In this document: in pieces, positions 1,175 through 25,462 of the stretch | How positions within the stretch are numbered: position 1 is the first letter of the stretch | How the letters are laid out: every line of letters begins with the position of its first letter | Origin: a virus | Virus record (IMG/VR): IMGVR_UViG_3300035118_000176 | Coordinates: 1-28,673 of that record | Reading direction: 5' to 3' (one strand) | DNA: 28,673 bases | Notes under the pieces: model-generated | The model's database searches: none | Told to the model about the DNA's origin: nothing | The model's input: only the letters and a program-made list of their open reading frames with translations | Position numbers and translations under genes: made by a program

Positions 1175-2923
1175 ATGGGTCCACAAACTGAATCTGCTGA
1201 TCGTCTTCATGCAATGAAGTATCGATCACCCGGTGAAGACTTTCGTGAGTCAATGAATCGAGTGGCCTTTGGTCTAAAGGACTCGGATAACCACTATCAT
1301 CAGTTTAGAGAGGTTATCCTAGACCAGCGTTTCCTCACCGGTGGCAGGATTCAGTCCGCTGTGGGCTCCTCCAAGCACGTTACTGCTCATAACTGTTACG
1401 TGTCAGGGACTATAGCTGACTCCTATGTTGAAGGACCGGGCTCTATTATGCACCGGGCGCATGAAGCGGCAGCAACGATGCGCATGGGAGGTGGGATTGG
1501 CTACGACTTTTCAACTCTACGTCCAAGAGGAGAATTGGTTGCTAAGTTGCAATCTCAGTCTTCTGGACCTGTCTCCTTTATGCACATTTATGACGCTGTA
1601 TGTCTTGCCACTGCGTCCTCCGGGCACCGGAGAGGCGCTCAAATGGGAATCCTACGGATCGATCATCCCGACATCGAAGAATTCATTCATGCTAAAAATA
1701 ATCGTGATAAGTTGGTGGGATTCAATATTAGCGTGGCAGTAACTGATGAGTTTATGGAAGCGGTAGCAAAGGGTAGTGAGTTTGCGCTGCGCTGGGGTGG
1801 TAAAGTTTATCGGTACGTGGATGCGCAGGAACTGTGGGAAAACCTGATGCGGTCTACCTGGGATTGGGGTGAGCCCGGTGTAGTCTTTATCGATACAATC
1901 AACCGCATGAACAACCTGTACTACTGCGAGATCATTGCTGCCACTAATCCTTGTAGTGAACAACCCTTGCCACCCTTTGGTGCTTGTCTGCTTGGATCGT
2001 TCAACCTTGTCAAGTATCTGTCTCGGCAGCCACTAAGGTTGATGAACTCACTTGATACTCTCCCGTCACCATGGTCATTTGATTCTGATAGGTTAAGGGC
2101 GGATGTCCCACCTGTGGTTAGGGCACTGGATAATGTTGTTGATAAGACTCGTTATCCCTTGGCAGAGCAACGTGGGGAGGCTATCACCAAGCGCAGGATG
2201 GGGATTGGGATTACAGGACTTGCCAATGCTGGTGAGGCACTGGGGTTCCCCTATGGGTCTGAAGCGTTTTGCTACTTTGAATCTGCTGTCTTGGAGACTA
2301 TTGAAGAGGCAGCTTACTTGGCAAGTGCGGATCTTGCTGAGGAAAAGGGTGCATTCCCATTGTTTGATGCGGAGCGTTATCTTGAAGGTGAGCACGTTAA
2401 GCGTCTATCGGAAGAAGTTCAGTATGCCATCAGAAAGAAGGGAATCCGCAATTCGCATCTGACCTCTATTGCACCCACAGGCACAATCTCGCTTTGCGCT
2501 GACAATGTAAGCTCTGCCCTGGAGCCTGTATTTGCCTATCGGCAAGAGCGTCCGATCAATACACCCACCGGTGCAATGATCGACGTGCTTGATGACTATG
2601 GGGCTAAGTTCTTGCAGGTGAGGGGAAAGCTGGCTGCAGATGTTACCGCAGATGAGCATCTCAAAGTCCTGTTGGCGGCACAACCACACTTAGACTCTGC
2701 TGCTTCCAAGACAGTGAATATGGATGGTCGAAAGATGCCTTGGGCGGACTTTAAGGCGATCTATCAAACAGTGTGGGAGAATGGTGGTAAGGGCTGCGCC
2801 ACATTTAACAGCGCTGGTAAGCGGGGCAGCCTGCTTAGTGATGCAGAGCGCGAGGACCCACCGGTATACGAAGGGGATTCGTGCGAGGTGGACCCACTAA
2901 CTGGAAGGCGTAGTTGTGAGTAA
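1175..2923 (+). CDS. nrdJ: Class II ribonucleotide reductase (adenosylcobalamin-dependent)
   Basis: 582 residues. Reduces ribonucleotides to deoxyribonucleotides for phage DNA synthesis. Radical-site motif NPCSEQ gives Asn258, Cys260 and Glu262. The redox pair is Cys74 (in HNCYVSG) and Cys271 (in FGACLLGS). APTGTISL near residue 430 is the phosphate-binding loop. A C-terminal Cys570/Cys581 pair can reload the active site from thioredoxin. It lacks an N-terminal ATP-cone allosteric domain, as in short phage forms. No NrdB-like small subunit gene is visible beside it, consistent with a class II enzyme that makes its radical from coenzyme B12. Preceded by AAAGGAG at 1160-1166. Whether the substrate is the diphosphate or triphosphate is not resolved. 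Confidence 0.92.
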   Translation: MGPQTESADRLHAMKYRSPGEDFRESMNRVAFGLKDSDNHYHQFREVILDQRFLTGGRIQSAVGSSKHVTAHNCYVSGTIADSYVEGPGSIMHRAHEAAATMRMGGGIGYDFSTLRPRGELVAKLQSQSSGPVSFMHIYDAVCLATASSGHRRGAQMGILRIDHPDIEEFIHAKNNRDKLVGFNISVAVTDEFMEAVAKGSEFALRWGGKVYRYVDAQELWENLMRSTWDWGEPGVVFIDTINRMNNLYYCEIIAATNPCSEQPLPPFGACLLGSFNLVKYLSRQPLRLMNSLDTLPSPWSFDSDRLRADVPPVVRALDNVVDKTRYPLAEQRGEAITKRRMGIGITGLANAGEALGFPYGSEAFCYFESAVLETIEEAAYLASADLAEEKGAFPLFDAERYLEGEHVKRLSEEVQYAIRKKGIRNSHLTSIAPTGTISLCADNVSSALEPVFAYRQERPINTPTGAMIDVLDDYGAKFLQVRGKLAADVTADEHLKVLLAAQPHLDSAASKTVNMDGRKMPWADFKAIYQTVWENGGKGCATFNSAGKRGSLLSDAEREDPPVYEGDSCEVDPLTGRRSCE

Positions 2924-3671: not shown

Positions 3672-5408
3672 TCAGAACGGAATTCCGTCATCGAGCTTGC
3701 GCTGGTAGACAATCTCGGTTGCCTTTCTCACGCCTTCACTATTTTCCCTGGGGTTGATTGCCACCTGCGCAAGCGCAGCATGAGAGTTGATCTGAGGGGT
3801 GCGCGCGTCCAAAGCCCGCTCGATCACTTCCTGCTTCTCGACGATGGTGTGGGCCATGATAGAATCGACCGATCCATCGAACACCAGGTGCTGCACCAGG
3901 ACCGAACCTTGCTGACCGATACGGTGCAGACGATCTTCGCATTGGCTGATCGTACCAGGCACCCAATCCAGCTCGGCAAAGATCACCAGCTGAGCGGCGG
4001 TCAGTGTAAGCCCAAGACCGGCGGCATGGATTGAACCAATAAACAGGTGGCAATTCGGGTCGTGTTGGAACTTGTCGACCTGCTGCGACCGCGCATTAGG
4101 TGGCGTCTCGCCGGTGACCACTGCTGCGGTGGGGAACTCTGCTTGCAGAGCATGGCCCACATCGTGATGATGAACGAACACCACAACTTTGTCCTCGGCC
4201 TCAAGGCATTCCTTGAGATGCTCGATGACGTTCGGAATCTTGGCGACCGCTGTATCGTGTCGAACTTGCGACATCTCTTCGAAGGCGATCTTGTTCGCAC
4301 CATGCAGCTTCCGGATGGAGGCATTATACCCATCCTTGTCGCCCTGCGCGCGTGCCTCCCGCGCGGCTTCTTCTGCGGCCTCTATGGTATCACGATAGCG
4401 TTTGTACACCGAGAGCTCAGCCGCAATGGCCGTCCCTGAGTGGGTGCTGGGCGGGAGGATAATGACCTGCCTGCGCTTTGCTGGCATTTCGGTCATAACT
4501 TCTGACTTCAACCGGCGCACCATAAACTTGCTGCGCAGGCGCTGCTGAAGTTCACCCAGATTTGAGGCACCATTAAAGTCCCAACCATACCCATTGTGAT
4601 GGGCTTCGGTATAGCGCTTCATGAATGTGAAGAAGTGCCGGCCCAGACCCTGAGGATCGAGCGCATGGACCAAAGTCCACAGTTCCTTTGGCCGGTTTAC
4701 GATCGGAGTACCGGTCATAAAGATTTTACGCTTGGCGCTAATTGGCTTGACGACCTTGGCCGGGTCTTTGTCTTCGTGACCGAGCAAGATCCTCGTCCGC
4801 TGGGCGTTTTCATTCTTGACCATGTGGCACTCGTCGACAATGAGCAGGTCCCACTTACGAGCGTCAATTGCTGCGCGGTGCTTGATCAGAATGTCGTAAT
4901 TGATGATTACGATATTGCCGGTCGGGAAAGTCCCATTGGCAATTTCGATTGAGAACTTGCGGACCAGCCACTTGTTCATCTCCCGCGCCCAGTTCACCTT
5001 GAGCGAGGCGGGGCAGACCACAAGGACTGTCTGGATCGAAGTGTCTAGGTTGATCACCCCGATTGCCTCGATCGTCTTGCCCAAGCCCATTTCGTCCCCG
5101 ATGAGGGTGGCAGGCTTGCTGGCGGCATAGGCAATGCCGGCAAGCTGATAGGGCAGATAGGCAAGCCCGTTAGGTACGGGAACCTGGGCGGTGGCACCCG
5201 TGGCATAGCTGCTGGCGATGGCTGTGTTTGCCTGGTCCGCAGCGCTCGAATCGAGCTTGGCCGCGACCAGTACGTCCTCGGTCCACCACAGTTTCGTGGT
5301 CGGATCCCAGTGAAAGCCGGCGGCCTTAACTACGTCCTTGGTCGCCCAATCGAACGCAAACCGCGCGATCCACCGGGCACCGGATTTCTCAACTTTGATA
5401 GGGTTCAC
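3672..5408 (-). CDS. SNF2-family DNA helicase/ATPase
   Basis: 578 residues. ATP-driven translocase or annealing helicase of superfamily 2, SNF2 branch. Walker A GDEMGLGKT at 104-112, Walker B DECH at 192-195, motif III MTGTPIVNRPKELW, and motif VI QCEDRLHRIGQQ near residue 515. The N-terminal ~50 residues (GFHWDPTTKLWWTED) resemble the small substrate-recognition segment that precedes SMARCAL1/HARP-like helicases. Start is GTG with GGAG 7 bases upstream, directly behind a copy of the repeated promoter. Such phage helicases usually act in replication-fork remodelling or recombination; the exact role is inferred. The downstream gene at 3379-3657 is co-oriented and 14 bases away. Confidence 0.93.
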   Translation of the reverse strand: MNPIKVEKSGARWIARFAFDWATKDVVKAAGFHWDPTTKLWWTEDVLVAAKLDSSAADQANTAIASSYATGATAQVPVPNGLAYLPYQLAGIAYAASKPATLIGDEMGLGKTIEAIGVINLDTSIQTVLVVCPASLKVNWAREMNKWLVRKFSIEIANGTFPTGNIVIINYDILIKHRAAIDARKWDLLIVDECHMVKNENAQRTRILLGHEDKDPAKVVKPISAKRKIFMTGTPIVNRPKELWTLVHALDPQGLGRHFFTFMKRYTEAHHNGYGWDFNGASNLGELQQRLRSKFMVRRLKSEVMTEMPAKRRQVIILPPSTHSGTAIAAELSVYKRYRDTIEAAEEAAREARAQGDKDGYNASIRKLHGANKIAFEEMSQVRHDTAVAKIPNVIEHLKECLEAEDKVVVFVHHHDVGHALQAEFPTAAVVTGETPPNARSQQVDKFQHDPNCHLFIGSIHAAGLGLTLTAAQLVIFAELDWVPGTISQCEDRLHRIGQQGSVLVQHLVFDGSVDSIMAHTIVEKQEVIERALDARTPQINSHAALAQVAINPRENSEGVRKATEIVYQRKLDDGIPF

Positions 5409-17695: not shown

Positions 17696-17730
17696 TCTCT
17701 GTGCTTGCGGGAGTGGGGAATGGAGAGCAG

Positions 17731-18237
17731 ATGGCATGGGCTTGCTTTCAAACTTATGGTGCTCAGGAACGTAAAGCTGTCGAGAACCTGACTCGACAGG
17801 GTCTAGACGCGTTTTGCCCGTTCTACACCAAACCCGTACTTCCATCTATCCGAGCACGAGGTCCTAAGGACGCTCCGTTATTTCCCTGTTACGGTTTTGT
17901 CTATCTTGAAGATAAGACGCAGTGGGGAATCCCCGGAAATACATACGGGGTCATTCGGCTTTTAACAGGAAACAAGTTAGATCCAAGACCTTTATGGGTG
18001 GCTACCACCTATATCGAGACAATTTATGAGATTCAAGCAAAGTTTGGTGGGAATGTCTTACCGGTTGATACGATAGTCAGAGTAAAAACTAAAGATAGCC
18101 CGTTTTTTGATCAAATAGGTACTGTTATTTCAATGAATTCAAACGATAGAATCCGGTTATTGATGAGTTTGTTCAATCGAGACATTATAGTAGAATTCGA
18201 AGCAGGTGCGGATTTAGAAATTGTGGAGCTTGAGTAG
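17731..18237 (+). CDS. NusG/RfaH-like transcription antiterminator, 168 aa
   Basis: Start ATG at 17731 (MAWACFQTYGAQERKAVENL) with GGAG 5 bases upstream. N-terminal NGN domain: W-x-C/x-Q-T, E-x-x-A-x-x-x-L, then FCPFY and PLFPCYGFVYLE (residues ~52-63), the standard NusG layout. The C-terminal KOW-type domain is around 115-168 (VDTIVRVKTKDSPFFDQIGT). NusG proteins bind RNA polymerase clamp helices and suppress pausing; specialised paralogues serve single long operons. Position at the head of the structural operon suggests a phage late-gene processivity factor. Overlaps the next start by one base. Confidence 0.85.
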   Translation: MAWACFQTYGAQERKAVENLTRQGLDAFCPFYTKPVLPSIRARGPKDAPLFPCYGFVYLEDKTQWGIPGNTYGVIRLLTGNKLDPRPLWVATTYIETIYEIQAKFGGNVLPVDTIVRVKTKDSPFFDQIGTVISMNSNDRIRLLMSLFNRDIIVEFEAGADLEIVELE

Positions 18238-19214
18238 TGACGAAAATCCCTCCCAACCAACCAAAGACAGATAGGAAGGTGAAATACGGTAACAGTACTG
18301 CTTATTCTCGTATGCGTTTTGATGATTTACCGCCTTCCCCTCAGACGTTGTGGTTCTATGGTAGATTACCCGCACACCAGCGCAAGTTTGTTGATGAATT
18401 GATTGTCAGTCAGGATCCGCAGCAGGCTGCCACTCGGTCGGGATTCTTGAATTACGATAGTGCAATGAAAGAGATTAGTGTTCGTTGTGCTATCCGTGAA
18501 CGACTTGAGACTATTACAGAGATGGCATCGGTTACTGCAGCTGATGTTCGTCGTGAATTAAAACATATTTACGAAGGCGATCCCACCGAGATTACCGGTG
18601 TTTGGCGGGTGCCCTGCAGGCATTGTTGGGGTGAAGGCAATCGCTTTCAGTACACCGACCCTGAAATGTACTATGTTGAGCAGGCGCAGTCTTACGGTGA
18701 AAACAATTGGCCCTCTTCCTGTATTACTAACGAATTCGGGCCCTTGATCTTCAAACATGCTACCGCTGCATGGGTGGCTGGTAAGAATCATCACCAAGTC
18801 GATATCAAGGGTGGTAGTGGGTATAGTCGCAACCGTGAAATCAACTCGGATTGCCCACAATGCCATGGTATTGGCGAACCGATGATGTATGTTTGTGATA
18901 CAAGGTACCTTTCGGAATCAGCCAAAAAGATCTTTAAGGGTGTAAGGGTTGGTGATAACAAAATCGAAGTAATGACGATTGATAAGACTCACGCCCTAAC
19001 ATTATTGGCAAGAGATACTCAGGTTGGTATTGAGCGGCGGGAAATCACAATTAACCTCCCCCGCACAAAGGAAGAATTTGAAGAGACAGTCAGGAAAATG
19101 TCTGTTGATGAACTTGAAATGTTTATCGCTAATATGATCACGCTTGGGGAAGAAGAGTACGAAGTACAAGGTGCGGGGGCACAGCGTAGGTTAAAGTTTT
19201 CAAGAGGTAACTAA
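18237..19214 (+). CDS. terS: Terminase small subunit with zinc-finger insert
   Basis: 325 residues, GTG start overlapping the previous stop (TAGTG). Residues ~48-75 (QRKFVDELIVSQDPQQAATRSGF) match the N-terminal DNA-binding HTH of Terminase_2-type small subunits, which recognise the packaging site. Unusually, residues ~125-220 insert a CRHCWGEGN pair and a CPQCHGIGE pair, like DnaJ CxxCxGxG repeats, probably one zinc ion. The C-terminal acidic helix (EEFEETVRKMSVDELEMFI) may contact the large subunit. The length is nearly twice a typical small subunit. Function is inferred from the HTH region and its place before terL. Confidence 0.8.
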   Translation: MTKIPPNQPKTDRKVKYGNSTAYSRMRFDDLPPSPQTLWFYGRLPAHQRKFVDELIVSQDPQQAATRSGFLNYDSAMKEISVRCAIRERLETITEMASVTAADVRRELKHIYEGDPTEITGVWRVPCRHCWGEGNRFQYTDPEMYYVEQAQSYGENNWPSSCITNEFGPLIFKHATAAWVAGKNHHQVDIKGGSGYSRNREINSDCPQCHGIGEPMMYVCDTRYLSESAKKIFKGVRVGDNKIEVMTIDKTHALTLLARDTQVGIERREITINLPRTKEEFEETVRKMSVDELEMFIANMITLGEEEYEVQGAGAQRRLKFSRGN

Positions 19215-19215
19215 C

Positions 19216-19371
19216 ATGAAGTTGATCATTCTCTCTCTAGTGGTTGGTATGGGCTTTGTCCTTGCCGGCTGCACTGGTTGTGGCGTAAATGGTCAACGCT
19301 GTGTGACCGGTTACACTTACACCCAGACACAACCCGGTGTCTGGGTAATTACAGTGCAGTACGGTAGCTGA
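19216..19371 (+). CDS. Small lipoprotein, 51 aa
   Basis: MKLIILSLVVGMGFVLAGC: a type II signal peptide with lipobox LAGC, so Cys19 would be lipidated after cleavage. The mature chain of 33 residues has two further Cys and a Thr-rich beta-like tail (YTYTQTQPGVWVITVQ). AGAGG lies 9 bases before the ATG, and the stop overlaps the terminase start (TGATG). Phage lipoproteins may act as superinfection-exclusion or outer spanin proteins; the lack of Pro-rich sequence and of a partner inner spanin makes the first more likely. Both are inference. Confidence 0.75.
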   Translation: MKLIILSLVVGMGFVLAGCTGCGVNGQRCVTGYTYTQTQPGVWVITVQYGS

Positions 19372-21002
19372 TGCCTACCAAGACTAGACATCAAACATTA
19401 CCACATGAACGGCGCCGTCTGGAAGATTTGGCGCTGGATACCTATGTTAGTTTGAAAGACAGGGTAATTCCAAAGTTACAGTTGATTAAGGAACCTGATG
19501 TAGACTTGAAATGGGCCTACTCCTATGCGGGTAGGCCACATGATTTCATTGCTGAAATCGTACCTGATTGGTATGGTAGTAATTGGACTTCCTGGCGTTC
19601 TTTTGTTGGTACTGTATTCGCCATTCCATTTGAAGAAAATGAAGAATACCAGATCTTTAGAGACTGCACTGATCTTGTTGATCAGCCTACGAAAAAGTCG
19701 TCACGGGTCTGGATGCCGGTCGGTCGTCGCGGCGGGAAGTCTCGTATACTTGCTGCTATTTCTGTGTATTTGGGTTGTTGTTATGATTGGTCTCATTATC
19801 TGGACCCCGGGGAACTGGGTGTACTACTTGTATTGGCAGCAGACCGTCGACAAGCTCGAGTAATCATGGGTTATGTTAAAGCCTTTCTAGATCATCCGAA
19901 ATTGAAGACCAGAGTCAAGACAGAGAACGCCGAATCTGTTCTATTTCATGGTAATATCTTAGTTGAAGTGGGTACAGCTAGTTATAGAGCAGTCCGGTCA
20001 AGAACCATTATTGCGGCATTGTGTGATGAGATTGCTTTTTGGCATAGTGACGAATCTTCAGCAAATCCGGATACTGAAATTATTGCCGCTCTTGAGCCGG
20101 CAATGGCCACCATCCCAAATGCACTATTGTTGGGCGCTTCATCCCCATACGCTCGCCGTGGTGTATTGTGGAATAACTTTGAAAGGTACTTTGGTAAAGA
20201 TGATGGGCCGCTAATTTGGCGCGCACCCACAAGGGTGATGAACCCTACGGTACCACAATCATTTATTGATGAAAAGTACGAAGAAGACCCCTATAGTGCG
20301 GCAGCTGAATATGGTGCCGAATTTAGATCTGATGTTGATGCGTTTATTACGAAAGAGGCAATTGATAGTGTAACAACTCGCGGATTACATGAATTGCCTT
20401 ATGAGATGGGGATGCGTTATTACGGATTTGTAGATCCTAGTGGTGGTTCCAGTGATAGTATGACCCTGGCAATTGGCCATATTGATCCGCAGACCAAACG
20501 TGGTGTACTTGATGTATTGAGAGAGCGTAGACCACAATTCTCACCGGAAGCGGTGGTTGAAGAGTTTGTTTCAGTACTACATACTTATCGGGTCTTTAGG
20601 GTAGTTGGTGACCACTATGCTGGTGAGTGGCCCAGGGAAAGATTTAGAATAAAGGGTGTTGAATATAATGTCTCTAAGGCAAGTAAATCCGACATTTACG
20701 TTGCATTTCTACCGATCGTCAACGCCGGACGGTGTGAGTTACTTGATAACAGTCGCCTATATAACCAGTTGCTCGGACTCGACCGGCGAATCTCACGTGG
20801 AGGTCATGAAACAATTGATCACTCTCCGGGGACACACGACGATCTCGCAAATGTGGTCGCAGGTGTGATGCACATTATGCTCAGCAAGCGTCAGACCTTG
20901 AATGTCGATCCCAAGGTACTGGCAATGTCTGAGACACTGGTTGCTCGTAGACCAGTAGATTTGGTTAATCTAACTTCCAATATGCACGGACCTCGGTGGT
21001 AA
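19371..21002 (+). CDS. terL: Terminase large subunit
   Basis: 543 residues; ATP-driven DNA packaging motor and headful nuclease. Walker A GRRGGKS at 118-124, Walker B CDEIAFW with Asp219/Glu220, then a coupling motif LLLGASSP at 252-259. The RNase-H-like nuclease has Asp355 in GFVDPSGG, Asp414 in VVGDHYAGEW, and Asp490/Asp491 in THDDLANV. All key residues are present. Starts at TGATG overlap with the lipoprotein gene and ends at TAATG overlap with the next small gene. Confidence 0.95.
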   Translation: MPTKTRHQTLPHERRRLEDLALDTYVSLKDRVIPKLQLIKEPDVDLKWAYSYAGRPHDFIAEIVPDWYGSNWTSWRSFVGTVFAIPFEENEEYQIFRDCTDLVDQPTKKSSRVWMPVGRRGGKSRILAAISVYLGCCYDWSHYLDPGELGVLLVLAADRRQARVIMGYVKAFLDHPKLKTRVKTENAESVLFHGNILVEVGTASYRAVRSRTIIAALCDEIAFWHSDESSANPDTEIIAALEPAMATIPNALLLGASSPYARRGVLWNNFERYFGKDDGPLIWRAPTRVMNPTVPQSFIDEKYEEDPYSAAAEYGAEFRSDVDAFITKEAIDSVTTRGLHELPYEMGMRYYGFVDPSGGSSDSMTLAIGHIDPQTKRGVLDVLRERRPQFSPEAVVEEFVSVLHTYRVFRVVGDHYAGEWPRERFRIKGVEYNVSKASKSDIYVAFLPIVNAGRCELLDNSRLYNQLLGLDRRISRGGHETIDHSPGTHDDLANVVAGVMHIMLSKRQTLNVDPKVLAMSETLVARRPVDLVNLTSNMHGPRW

Positions 21003-21420: not shown

Positions 21421-22380
21421 ATGTCTGATATCTATATTCCCTCACCGGATCCCAGACCCGATTTGGGTCTAACAATGTTCTACCAGACTCATCGACTGAT
21501 AGAGGCCGCACCGATTGTCAGTTTTACCCATGGATCACCATCTATTGTTGTTGTAAATGATAATGGAGTCGAACATACAATTGAGGTCACCGAAGCATTC
21601 TTTACCGCAGGTGACCCTGAAATTGGTGATTACTTTGTTGCTTACCCAGACCCAGCACAAACTATGTACTGGGAAGCGAAACTGGCATTTGAGCAAGCCT
21701 ATACAGTTGTAGTTGAGGGACCACCGGGTCCGCAAGGTCCGCAGGGTGAACCAGGAGAAACTGGACCACAAGGTGAACCAGGAGAAACTGGACCACAAGG
21801 TGAACCAGGACCTACTGGAAATACTGGTCCTATTGGCCCTACTGGCCCTAGTGGTCCTACTGTTGTCAGTGTTGATAATGGGAATCTAGCCGAGCTAGGT
21901 TCTGATAATCTATTACTTGTCCCGAATACTTCAAGACTTGTGGGTGTAACTGACGGATCTGATGCACAACCTGGTGAGATTGGTGAATACGTAGTATCGG
22001 CTAACGCAGTTGGTATTGCAGTTACTTCGGATGTGCCCGCAACGATTACACAAATCACTTTGAGTCCTGGCTGCTGGGAAATGTGGGGTTGTGTTGACTT
22101 TCGACCTCCCTCCAATAAAAGTCCAAATATGATTTGTGGCAGTATTAGTTTGAATGATAACTCGCTGCCGACTGACAACGATCTGTACGTGGGCGTCGGC
22201 ATTATGACGTTGTTTTATACAACGGCGCTGACATCCGGGGCGCGGCAGGTATTGATGACTGGACAATGCCGTGCTAACACTGCGGTATCTCTTACCGTTT
22301 ATCTGGTAGGAGAGACGGCTTTTGGTGGTGGCGGTACTTCGAATGTTCAGGGTTACATCTGTGCTAGGCGCGTCCGATGA
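21421..22380 (+). CDS. Collagen-repeat fibre-like virion protein, 319 aa
   Basis: Residues 1-99 form a beta-rich head domain. Residues 100-145 are uninterrupted Gly-X-Y triplets rich in GEPGETGPQ and GPIGPTGPS, expected to form a trimeric triple helix. Residues ~146-319 form a Gly/Ser/Thr-rich beta domain like phage head- or tail-fibre tips ([14 protein letters not shown]). Proteins of this form are usually receptor-binding or capsid decoration fibres. Its place between terminase and portal, rather than among tail genes, favours a head fibre. Confidence 0.75.
21745..21810 (+). repeat. 27-bp tandem repeat in the collagen region
   Basis: Two identical 27-base units (21745-21771, 21772-21798) encoding GEPGETGPQ plus a partial third, GEPG. 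The exact identity at DNA level indicates recent unit duplication. Confidence 0.85.
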
Positions 22381-22397: not shown

Positions 22398-22556
22398 ATG
22401 ATCATCGAAATCCTGTTCGTCGTCGTGATGTTCCTGTGGCTCCTCACAATCCTACCCTTTCCACCATTACAACCATTCGCCACGTCAAACGTCTTCTTTG
22501 CGTTTGTGGCTGTGTTGTTGCTGGGGTTGTTTATCTTTATGCCTGGCATTAGATAA
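22398..22556 (+). CDS. Two-span membrane protein, 52 aa
   Basis: MIIEILFVVVMFLWLLTIL, a Pro-rich turn FPPLQPFATS, then NVFFAFVAVLLLGLFIFM. GGAGGG lies about 6 bases before the ATG at 22398; an in-frame ATG at 22377 overlaps the previous stop but has no Shine-Dalgarno. The stop overlaps the next start (TAATG). Likely an inner-membrane peptide; role unknown. Confidence 0.65.
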   Translation: MIIEILFVVVMFLWLLTILPFPPLQPFATSNVFFAFVAVLLLGLFIFMPGIR

Positions 22557-22717
22557 TGCTTGGCATTATTCTTCTAGTTATACTAATCCTACTGCTTGTA
22601 GGTGGGTTGCCTAATTGGGGGCATATGGCACCTTACAACTATGGTTATTACCCATCATTTGGGGTTTTGTTATTGATAATTGTTCTACTAGTCTTGATCT
22701 TCGGAGGACATCTCTAG
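22556..22717 (+). CDS. DUF3309 family membrane protein, 53 aa
   Basis: MLGIILLVILILLLVGGLPN, a polar turn with WGHMAPYNYGYYPS, then GVLLLIIVLLVLIFGGHL. The LLLVGGLPxWxH...GYxPSxGVLLLIxxxLLL pattern is that of DUF3309, a two-span family common in alphaproteobacteria. Stop TAG is immediately followed by the portal TTG start. Its presence in a phage late operon is unusual; function unknown. Confidence 0.8.
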   Translation: MLGIILLVILILLLVGGLPNWGHMAPYNYGYYPSFGVLLLIIVLLVLIFGGHL

Positions 22718-25462
22718 TTGGCTGAAGTTACCGATCTCAAGCAAGTATCGGAAACAAAGAACCCGGTAAAGATAATACCGTCTGAGGTTCTGGCTAAGTC
22801 AGCCATGATTAGGCGGCCTTCAGTAGCAACTCGTAGTCCATTTGAAGTACCGAGCTTCCCGCCAGCAGTTGAGAACGCGCTAAAAGAGCGCGATATTCCA
22901 ACACTGGCGATGGATGAAACAATATCTGGAACCTTTGGTTGGGCGTCCAGAGATTTTATTGCCACAGCTTATGCTGAAGGCGTTGTGTTTATGGGCTATG
23001 CCTACCTGGCTAGTCTATCACAACGCCCAGAGTACCGGGTGGTTACAGAAGTTATTGCTTCTGAAATGACTCGTGAGTGGATTGAGTTAAAGGCCGCCAG
23101 TGGTGATGAAAGCAAGTCAGACAAGATCAAGAAAATCAATGACAAGATGGACAACCTTAGGATTAGAAAGGCATTTCAAAAAGCAACAGAGGCTGATGGT
23201 TTCTTTGGTCGCGGTCATTTATACCTAGACACCGGCAAAACTCACGATGACGAAGAGTTAAGGCTGGATTTGGGTGATGGTCGCAATCTGTTGAGTAAAC
23301 AGAAGGTTGGTTCGTCAAAAAGTGGTAAAGCGCAAAAGCTGATTAGAGTCTTGCCGGTAGAGCCCACTTGGTGTTATCCTACCCGGTATGACTCGGTTGA
23401 TCCACTGAGCCCTGATTGGTATAACCCAATCACTTGGTTTGTAATGTCACGCGAGGTACATCGCTCAAGGTTGCTGACATTTGTTGGTCGAGAAATGCCG
23501 GACATCTTGAAACCCGCCTATGCTTTTGGCGGGTTAAGCATGTCTCAAATGCTCAAGCCCTATGTCGACAATTGGTTAAGGACAAGACAGAGTGTCAGTG
23601 ATCTGATTCAGAACTTTTCACATAGTGTATTGAAAACCAATATGGACGCCACCACAGCGGTGGGTGGGGATGCACTTTTCGCTCGGGTTGCGTTGTTTAA
23701 CAATATCAAGAATAACCAAGGTGCAATGGTTATTGATAAGGATGCTGAAGATTTCAGTAATGTTAGTGCCCCATTGGGTGGACTGGATTCCTTACAAGCA
23801 CAATCTCAAGAACATATGGCGGCGATTGCCCGTATTCCACTGGTTAAGTTGTTGGGCATTCAGCCTGCTGGATTGAATGCAAGTAGCGAGGGTGAACTGG
23901 TTTCTTTTGAAGACTGGATTGCGGCATTTCAGGAAGTATTGTACCGGCCCAATCTGACCAAGATTATTGACCTTATTCAGTTAAGCGAGTTTGATGAAGT
24001 GGACGATGATATTACGTTTGACTTTAAGCCACTAAGACAAGAGAAGCCTGAAGAGATTGTTCAGAGAGAGCAAGTAAAGGCGACCACTAGAGAAACCTAC
24101 TATGGAATGGGTGCTGTAGATCCACAAGAGGTGCGAGATTCTCTTGCTCAGGATCCGGATAGTCCATTTGATGGTGTAGATCTAACAAAAGAACTTCCAG
24201 CACCACCACAGCCTCCTGGTGTACCTGGTGTCCCACAACCACCAGGTGCTGCATCACAACCAGGAGGGCCAGGTGGACCACCGGGTGGGGGTCCACCATC
24301 ACCTGCTTCTGGGCCACCTGGTGCAGCGCCTCCGAAACAACCGAGCCGCCCCCCGGCCCCGGGCGGAGGCGCTCCTGGTGACAATAGTAATGATAATAAT
24401 CAGAAATTAGTTGATCTATTGAATGCTAAGGTAGCGGCAGACGCTGGCTTTGATCCTAAAGACCATCCACATGCACCTGAAGGTACTAGTGGTGGTAAAG
24501 GTGGTCAGTTTGTCAGTAAAGGTTCTGGTGCATCGGCAGCTACAGCTCCCGCCGCACCAGCAAAGCCTGCAGCTAAGGCGCAGACTGCAAAGCCTGCTGC
24601 AAAGAAAGCAAAAACAACCACTGCCAAACCTAAGAAAGAATCAACCGTTGGGTATTACAGTCTAACTCCTGCCCCGGCCAATAAAGAAGATTGGCCAGAA
24701 CATGCCAAAGACTTTAAGATCCCACCAGCCTGGACCGATGTTAGAATCAATATGGATCCTAACGCTAGGGGTCAACTAGCGGGTGGTAAAGACTCTAAGG
24801 GTCGTATTCAACCACTATTCCATCAGGAGTACAGAGATTCTCAGGATGCAAAAAAGTTTGAGCTTGAATTAAAGTTAACCCCACATATGCCGGAGTACAA
24901 GGAAGGAAATGATAAGAATTTGACTGCCTGGGATGGTCGAACTCGTGAACATGCTACATGTCTTGGTATAATCATGCAGATGGGCCTAAGGCCGGGTAGT
25001 GAACGAGATACAGGGGCTGAAAAGCAGGCTTATGGTGCGACTACATTACAAGGTAAGTTTGTCAAGACTGAGGGGGATAAGACATTTTTGAGATTTACAG
25101 GTAAGAAGGGTGTCTCGTTAAACTTACCAGTTGAAGATCCCGAACTTGCCGCCTCTCTGCGCAAGATGGCAGGGGAAAATCAGGGTAAGTTGTTCACGAA
25201 GATCAATGATCAATCCTTGCGGGATTACACAAAACATATTACAAAGGGTTTAGGCAAGCCTAAGGATTTTAGGACGTTGTTTGCTAACAAGACTGCAAAC
25301 GAAGTAATATCAAAGATGCGTGCACCCCCACCCGGTGATGATGCAGCTTTTAAGAAGGCCTGCCAACAGGTTGCATTGGCAGTATCGAAAAAGCTAGGCA
25401 ATACACCAGATGTCGCCTTGCGATCGTATATTAATCCGATCGTGTTCTCAGGCTGGAGATAA
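22718..25462 (+). CDS. Portal protein fused to a DNA topoisomerase IB domain
   Basis: 914 residues, TTG start with CGGAGGA upstream. Residues ~65-490 match the DUF1073 (Phage_portal_3 type) portal, e.g. RPEYRVVTEVIASEMTREW, ADGFFGRGHLYLDTG and the APLGGLDSLQAQSQEHMAA region; portals form the dodecameric DNA gate. A Pro/Gly linker (~498-560) and an Ala/Lys/Pro tail (~600-640) follow. Residues ~642-914 match topoisomerase IB: IPPAWTDVRI, DSKGRIQPLFHQEY, then the pentad Arg758 (MGLRPGSE), Lys796 (FTGKKG), Arg852 (KDFRTLFANKTA), Asn895 (LGNT) and Tyr904 (RSYINP). The spacings 38, 56, 43 and 9 agree with poxvirus and bacterial enzymes; Asn in place of His is known in Deinococcus. The usual N-terminal TopIB segment is shortened. 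One continuous frame, no frameshift. Confidence 0.9.
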   Translation: MAEVTDLKQVSETKNPVKIIPSEVLAKSAMIRRPSVATRSPFEVPSFPPAVENALKERDIPTLAMDETISGTFGWASRDFIATAYAEGVVFMGYAYLASLSQRPEYRVVTEVIASEMTREWIELKAASGDESKSDKIKKINDKMDNLRIRKAFQKATEADGFFGRGHLYLDTGKTHDDEELRLDLGDGRNLLSKQKVGSSKSGKAQKLIRVLPVEPTWCYPTRYDSVDPLSPDWYNPITWFVMSREVHRSRLLTFVGREMPDILKPAYAFGGLSMSQMLKPYVDNWLRTRQSVSDLIQNFSHSVLKTNMDATTAVGGDALFARVALFNNIKNNQGAMVIDKDAEDFSNVSAPLGGLDSLQAQSQEHMAAIARIPLVKLLGIQPAGLNASSEGELVSFEDWIAAFQEVLYRPNLTKIIDLIQLSEFDEVDDDITFDFKPLRQEKPEEIVQREQVKATTRETYYGMGAVDPQEVRDSLAQDPDSPFDGVDLTKELPAPPQPPGVPGVPQPPGAASQPGGPGGPPGGGPPSPASGPPGAAPPKQPSRPPAPGGGAPGDNSNDNNQKLVDLLNAKVAADAGFDPKDHPHAPEGTSGGKGGQFVSKGSGASAATAPAAPAKPAAKAQTAKPAAKKAKTTTAKPKKESTVGYYSLTPAPANKEDWPEHAKDFKIPPAWTDVRINMDPNARGQLAGGKDSKGRIQPLFHQEYRDSQDAKKFELELKLTPHMPEYKEGNDKNLTAWDGRTREHATCLGIIMQMGLRPGSERDTGAEKQAYGATTLQGKFVKTEGDKTFLRFTGKKGVSLNLPVEDPELAASLRKMAGENQGKLFTKINDQSLRDYTKHITKGLGKPKDFRTLFANKTANEVISKMRAPPPGDDAAFKKACQQVALAVSKKLGNTPDVALRSYINPIVFSGWR

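Follow-up and report, generated by a model that had tools for sequence, protein, structure and literature searches.

Portal protein genes of uncultured phages fused in frame to a predicted topoisomerase IB domain

Enzymes fused to phage head proteins have been described as portal and MuF proteins carrying PBECR, 2H, InPase, Nudix or ART domains, which are proposed to be packaged and injected (available text of PMC5512222 and PMC9503650). Here we describe a gene in which a portal protein of the PF06381 (DUF1073) family is followed, in the same reading frame, by a topoisomerase IB (TopIB) domain. It lies in the IMG/VR virus record IMGVR_UViG_3300035118_000176, a stretch of 28,673 bases that was analyzed whole and is called the window below. 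The gene shares with the polyvalent portal and MuF fusions an enzyme domain placed on a head protein, but differs from them in the enzyme: the word topoisomerase occurs once in the main text of PMC5512222, in a reference title, and never in the text of PMC9503650 that was available. An earlier note on this DNA knew of no described portal-topoisomerase, and we likewise found none in the open-licence PubMed Central literature searched, including the available text of PMC7824862, PMC10893049, PMC7326821 and PMC3493329. Enzyme fusions to head proteins are already known; it is TopIB as such a cargo that is not found in this literature.

The portals of the Pseudomonas phages E217 and Pa193 (gp19, 765 amino acids (aa)) are related to that of the window by phmmer. 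According to the text available, the E217 portal was built for residues 97-528 of 765 and its C-terminal barrel projects into the head (PMC10329688), and no density was seen for residues 529-765 of the Pa193 portal (PMC11042391). Their tail has no topoisomerase match, as phmmer aligns the fusion with them significantly only up to chain residue 580. We take the tail of the E217 portal to be an InPase. Among topoisomerases, variola TopIB is the closest in fold, and its catalytic pentad aligns with that of the window at 21-23% identity of the TopIB; it differs in being a separate enzyme of a eukaryotic virus, with His where the window has Asn. Poxvirus TopIB is carried in the virion and aids early transcription. 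Bacterial TopIBs (Deinococcus 2f4q/3m4a, plasmid and chromosomal genes) share the pentad with Asn, but are only 26-31% identical to the window's domain (≤35% in best segments) and form a separate clade. For some jumbo phages and others (Motura, NCTB and more), the available text of PMC7824862 describes a topoisomerase I with a tyrosine-recombinase fold, likely a TopIB. GenBank phage TopIBs are 23-35% identical to the window's in the matched parts; that of BS162P1 is a separate 254-aa gene, and the match in LR745208 sits in a 508-aa open reading frame (ORF) with a different N-terminal sequence. Matches covering 80% of the full-length fusion were absent from the phage records. The 508-aa ORF that holds the TopIB match in a 485-kb uncultured phage record (L089:3374-4900; L numbers denote loci of our surveys) has an N-terminus that looks by eye like a HAD-type phosphatase.

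The fusion gene is a single frame of 914 open codons on the plus strand, as are all its features given below (22718..25462); it starts with TTG and is preceded by GGAGG at 22703..22707, by eye a likely ribosome-binding site. The portal domain (residues 95-457, 23000..24088) matches Phage_portal_3 (PF06381) over profile positions 2-354 of 357 with 254.2 bits against a cut-off of 33.8 (E 1.9e-75), and the portal family phrog_146 with E 2.6e-102. A linker rich in Pro, Gly, Ala and Lys follows at residues about 491-641 (24188..24640) and is predicted to be mostly disordered, with a predicted local distance difference test (pLDDT) <50 at residues 492-562 and 568-645; it contains the motif DHPHAPEGTSGGKGGQFVSKGS (residues 582-603, 24461..24526), of a recurrent HPR..G(Q/K)F type that stands ahead of cargo domains. 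Residues 642-914 (24641..25459) are the TopIB domain, comprising a probable N-lobe and the catalytic core (E 8.7e-21), in which Topoisom_I (PF01028) matches residues 704-895 with 74.8 bits against a cut-off of 23.7. The claim of the earlier note that a portal is fused in frame to a complete TopIB is borne out by the single frame, by Pfam matches to both families far above their cut-offs, and by six more contigs. In the N-lobe, the match to Top1B_N_bact (PF21338) at residues 664-686 is weak in the window (21.1 bits, under the cut-off of 27), and this cut-off is passed by several relatives. Just two ORFs of at least 80 aa overlap the gene on the opposite strand (83 aa and 114 aa).

Because six contigs from other metagenomes carry the open fusion, an assembly error or chimera is ruled out. 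A scan of viral contigs recovered the same TopIB domain in six further IMG/VR contigs, which represent six metagenome ids besides that of the window; each has the fusion open from end to end, with a length of 914 or 912 aa. Over the longest aligned stretch their DNA identity to the window is 99.5-99.6% for four contigs, 97% for L006 and 93% for L007, so that two lineages are represented and two contigs have the fusion in diverged form. A swap of the TopIB cassette alone was considered from the comparison of the window with L013, where the proportion of synonymous differences is 0.017 in TopIB and 0.101 in the portal; blocks of low and high divergence occur along the whole region in a sliding comparison and therefore look like general mosaicism, and the difference is not used as evidence. 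ATG, GTG and TTG are all absent from codons 569-678, so internal initiation is not an obvious source of a free TopIB that includes the N-lobe, and the TTG at codon 568 was rejected as a start for separate translation, as it has by eye no clear ribosome-binding site.

The catalytic pentad is complete and stands at the residues named in the earlier note: Arg758 (codon 24989..24991), Lys796 (25103..25105), Arg852 (25271..25273), Asn895 (25400..25402) and the nucleophile Tyr904 (25427..25429), which are R117, K155, R211, N254 and Y263 of the 273-aa domain. Alignments place these residues against variola R130, K167, R223, H265 and Y274 (numbering counted from the alignment) and also against Deinococcus TopIB, where Asn in the fourth place is seen as that note had stated. 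The spacing of 37/56/42/9 that it gave for the vaccinia enzyme is likewise obtained from the variola alignment, compared with 38/56/43/9 in the window. The pentad is invariant in alignments of 9 and 20 sequences, both including the window. An AlphaFold2 model of the domain built with 20 sequences has a pLDDT of 91.1 and a predicted template modelling score (pTM) of 0.85, and contains the TopIB core. Its best solved match is variola TopIB (Foldseek template modelling score 0.77-0.78; VIA-align Z 22.5, root-mean-square deviation 2.9 over 262 residues, spanning model residues 7-273). Human and Deinococcus TopIB rank just below it, and among tyrosine recombinases the highest Z is 15.4. This weaker fold match and the lack of a PF00589 profile match rule out a tyrosine recombinase: PF00589 was absent from the window's record at E 0.001 and from all 11 records searched, and matched in 14 of 14 control genomes. 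No integrase was found in these 11 records, which may be fragments. TopIB relaxes supercoils without ATP, and the domain, which as modelled has the complete active site and the TopIB fold, is predicted to be an ATP-independent relaxase.

We then compared the tails of other portals, taking the best 80 of 303 confirmed relatives, of which six belong to the window's own group and 74 do not. Beyond the portal match the tail is at least 120 aa long in 17 of these 74 and shorter in 57. Twelve of the 17 long tails were scanned (L019, L071, L075 and L078 are identical over their length to a scanned one, and L069 was left out), and cargo domains were recognised in seven of these: ART in L014, L064 and L076; NUDIX in L014, L073, L076 and L085; Zeta toxin in L051; GNAT in L073; and Acb1 in L087. 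No cargo domain was recognised in the long tails of L027, L033, L054, L083 and L084. Among the best 80, the nearest portal that does not belong to the window's group is L014 (71% identical in the best segment, 65% over 547 residues); its likeness to the window stops near residue 547, its tail has NUDIX and ART domains, and a search of its 116-kb record found no TopIB. Judged by these comparisons, the tail of PF06381 portals appears to be a variable slot with exchangeable cargo at the same position, in keeping with the earlier note, which had named Acb1-type domains on DUF1073 portals and suggested such a slot.

We give about an even chance to the proposal that the tail of the portal serves as a cargo slot within the head and that TopIB is a new cargo acting on the phage genome around delivery. 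By homology, the window's portal would form a dodecamer at one capsid vertex. We infer as follows where TopIB sits in the particle, how it is released and leaves with the DNA, and which step it serves. The C-terminal tail beyond the portal barrel would lie inside the head, because the E217 and Pa193 portals are homologous, and would hold TopIB there on a long flexible tether, with twelve portal subunits loading about twelve copies per particle. Cleavage, probably within the linker, would separate TopIB from the portal, and TopIB would leave the head together with the DNA and serve as a swivel available from the outset, relaxing supercoils without ATP during genome entry and first transcription. 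Uncultured phages with the fusion may thereby bring their own topoisomerase in the particle.

TopIB relatives elsewhere were collected with a wider profile, which gave 36 loci, and with a phage-weighted profile, of which the best 80 of 202 were taken, 20 of them seen already. The 90 phage-side rows used below include the window, L102 and L193; left out were L097-L101, of the window's own group, and L130-L132, with partial TopIB (L130 and L131 are PF06381-type portal fusions truncated at contig ends). Clustering at 90% identity reduces these rows to 79 clusters, of which 30 are fused to a portal. Of the 90 rows, 89 have the complete pentad, with N in the fourth place in all but one row, which has H; the remaining row, L113, is cut by the contig end before the Tyr. 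In 12 chosen TopIB pairs, the ratio of nonsynonymous to synonymous substitution rates (dN/dS) is 0.06-0.34 in the nine with computable dS, dS being high in several, which suggests that the domain is under purifying selection in the relatives. A catalytically dead DNA-binding tail, for which we found no supporting evidence, would have to be squared with this selection and the conserved pentad and is hardly credible.

Portal-fused rows number 34 of the 90, comprising 26 of PF06381 type, 4 of HK97 type, 3 of lambda type and 1 of Mu type; 25 of the PF06381-type rows are labelled as such, and the 26th, L193, is added through PHROG hits. Other head partners are two proteins of head-morphogenesis type (L172 and L157) and one head maturation protease (L192). 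Partners were assigned by Pfam for the rows named next, by PHROGs for L133, L157 and L193, and by phmmer for the rest. By hmmscan, fusions to PF06381 portals are found in the window, L108, L110, L112, L114, L115, L116, L121 and L148; to PF05136 portals in L111 and L152, with L179 at 32.2 bits just under the cut-off of 32.9; to PF04860 portals in L119, L165 and L167; and to a PF06074 portal in L173. L172 is fused to MuF (PF04233) and L192 to a DUF2213/head maturation protease. The order of domains varies, being portal-InPase-TopIB in L112 (which matches PF18823 InPase and phrog_4660 nearly along its length) and portal-TopIB-InPase in L148. On a tree made by a quick method, 88 of the 90 rows form one group, split from 20 bacterial rows by a 100* branch, and the exceptions L127 and L129 fall among the bacterial rows. 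The PF06381-fusion label (L193 not counted) needs 13 changes on this tree, at least five of them forced by starred branches, with gains and losses indistinguishable. The window and L102 group with the separate ORFs L137 and L145 (95*). In a scan of genome contigs limited to the best 80 of at least 454 confirmed TopIB relatives, one, L193, falls in the phage clade and the other 79 are ≤35% identical; L193 is a portal fusion in a contig of an Elusimicrobia metagenome-assembled genome, perhaps a binned phage or prophage. Altogether, by sequence, the same TopIB clade is attached to several unrelated head proteins.

This range of partners bears on where TopIB would act. The earlier note proposed that the tether places TopIB at the portal channel to release torsion during packaging or ejection, or lets it enter the host with the DNA; the fusion and the slot hold, torsion release at the channel is conjectural, and the partners L172, L157 and L192 and separate ORFs such as L017 speak against a role confined to the portal. 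Entry with the DNA, as we infer it, fits a shared slot better than action at the channel, but needs release from the portal. That TopIB works in place during packaging, removing the twist of the pumped DNA or of its first turns round the barrel, is nevertheless the main alternative, possible if unlikely. TopIB needs no ATP, the portal is its commonest identified partner, and T4 topoisomerase II deficiency impairs head filling (Zachary and Black, 1986, as cited in the available text of PMC10893049). However, the clade also sits on head-morphogenesis proteins, a maturation protease and separate ORFs, we know of no part played in packaging by its slot-mates such as NUDIX, ART, Acb1 and Zeta, and the closest portals outside the window's group, among the best 80 of 303, were not found fused to TopIB.

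Two further alternatives concern the host or the producing cell. TopIB shares the slot, and at times the polypeptide, with effector-type domains (protease-TopIB-ART in L192, TopIB-ART in L135, and NUDIX in L142, L151 and L169), and polyvalent proteins offer a precedent (available text of PMC5512222), so that an injected TopIB might act as a counter-defence or take-over effector on host DNA or on a supercoil- or nick-dependent defence. We regard this as rather improbable, as TopIB has no evident host-DNA-specific effect and we know of no defence that it would defeat. Still less probable is a fusion that merely co-expresses TopIB, which is then cut off for replication or late transcription in the producing cell: related contigs do hold separate TopIB genes close to a gene for a portal or a protease, and some jumbo phages have a likely TopIB (PMC7824862, in the text available), but co-expression hardly explains fusion to several head-protein families.

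Several observations weigh against a TopIB cargo that acts around delivery, which nevertheless remains our preferred proposal. The portal dodecamer remains with the head, so an injected TopIB needs release, and this is the weak link. The TopIB fusion is rare, being found in 6 of the 80 closest portals, all of the window's own group. Among the other 74 portal loci, nine TopIB queries found a single TopIB, in L017. Its gene is an ORF of its own (392 aa, L017:10833-12011) that contains the linker motif and follows a short-tailed PF06381-type portal by about 3.4 kb; it appears to be the same enzyme, not fused to a portal, in a related phage. The C-terminal end is off the contig in 10 of the 74 portal ORFs, whose tails are not fully visible. 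Head fusion is also not universal, since 53 of the 90 rows are free-standing, cut by the contig or without an assigned head protein; among them are free-standing ORFs, others that carry NUDIX or further cargo and others ending at a contig edge, and some have a portal or DUF2213 gene within the fetched flanks. Four TopIB queries against 50,697 phage records returned only distant matches, ≤35% identical, and no cultured member. Finally, the model of the full-length 914-aa protein has modest confidence (pLDDT 63.4, pTM 0.41).

The linker motif recurs beyond the window. Its pattern was written after the sequences had been viewed, and the sequences are related, so the counts that follow are descriptive and are not a test. 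In 56 of 91 ORFs having at least 40 upstream residues (L098-L100 left out), the pattern is present in the 110 residues ahead of TopIB; as background, it matches 3.5% of shuffles and, in the same ORFs, 13 of 306 segments taken elsewhere; some of the 35 unmatched ORFs have looser forms. It is found in none of 68 comparable ORFs from the 79 genome loci L194-L272. Among the 74 portals it occurs in 13 of the 17 long tails and 0 of the 57 short ones. The window becomes similar to the separate TopIB ORFs L137 and L145 from residue 578 onward, shortly ahead of the motif, and the motif and TopIB therefore appear to move together. No known Pfam domain accounts for the motif, with no hit for fragments of the window or L117 at E up to 10. 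A different short motif, DUF7211, was seen with a weak PARP match and TopIB in the ORF L178:4033-6798, and may be another linker tag.

A broader and more doubtful proposal is that the particles of many uncultured phages contain a TopIB and that a general tag directs its loading, namely the linker motif HPR..G(Q/K)F..G. The motif would mark cargo on portals, on head-morphogenesis proteins, on maturation proteases and near the starts of separate ORFs, and would be the site of cargo attachment and exchange, and perhaps of cleavage that releases it. If so, the portal would be a loading dock for interchangeable enzymes, the genome would arrive with its own swivel, and a virion-carried TopIB would have been reached by a route independent of poxviruses. 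Known portal and MuF cargo consists of RNases, nucleotide enzymes, ADP-ribosyltransferases and the like, as far as the sources cited above were available. A topoisomerase cargo would point to DNA topology as a problem for phages at packaging, entry or first transcription, and this role is testable, as a single tyrosine can be changed with the portal untouched. The sequence-defined portal fusions, from four portal families, also provide a set for asking how cargo leaves the portal.

Other fusions show further arrangements. L192:5209-8313 encodes the head maturation protease, TopIB and ART in a single 1035-aa ORF, and L172:2223-6092 a MuF head protein, DUF3626 and TopIB in an ORF of at least 1290 aa that is truncated by the contig end. 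The 1304-aa portal-TopIB ORF L133:2902-6813 has thymidylate synthase and ribonucleotide reductase family hits at residues 401-480, perhaps an intein inside the portal. In L182:5449-6795, TopIB is preceded by a weak match to ribosome modulation factor (24.8 bits, under the cut-off of 27.9).

In the window, the genes for both terminase subunits lie upstream of the fusion gene on the plus strand, giving it a packaging context: the small subunit at 18237..19214 (phrog_51 E 8.1e-13; PF03592 at 24.8 bits, under the cut-off of 26.1) and the large subunit at 19371..21002 (phrog_2 E 2.4e-20). A NusG-like antiterminator is encoded directly upstream of the small terminase gene (17701-18237). Between the large terminase and portal genes lies a collagen-repeat, tail-fibre-like protein (21421-22380), much of which is strongly diverged from L013, and two tiny hydrophobic reading frames stand just 5′ of the portal gene (22400-22717), presumably resembling small membrane proteins of the DUF3309 type. 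Farther away, the window encodes a ribonucleotide reductase large subunit (1175-2923, plus strand) and an SNF2-type helicase (3672-5408, minus strand).

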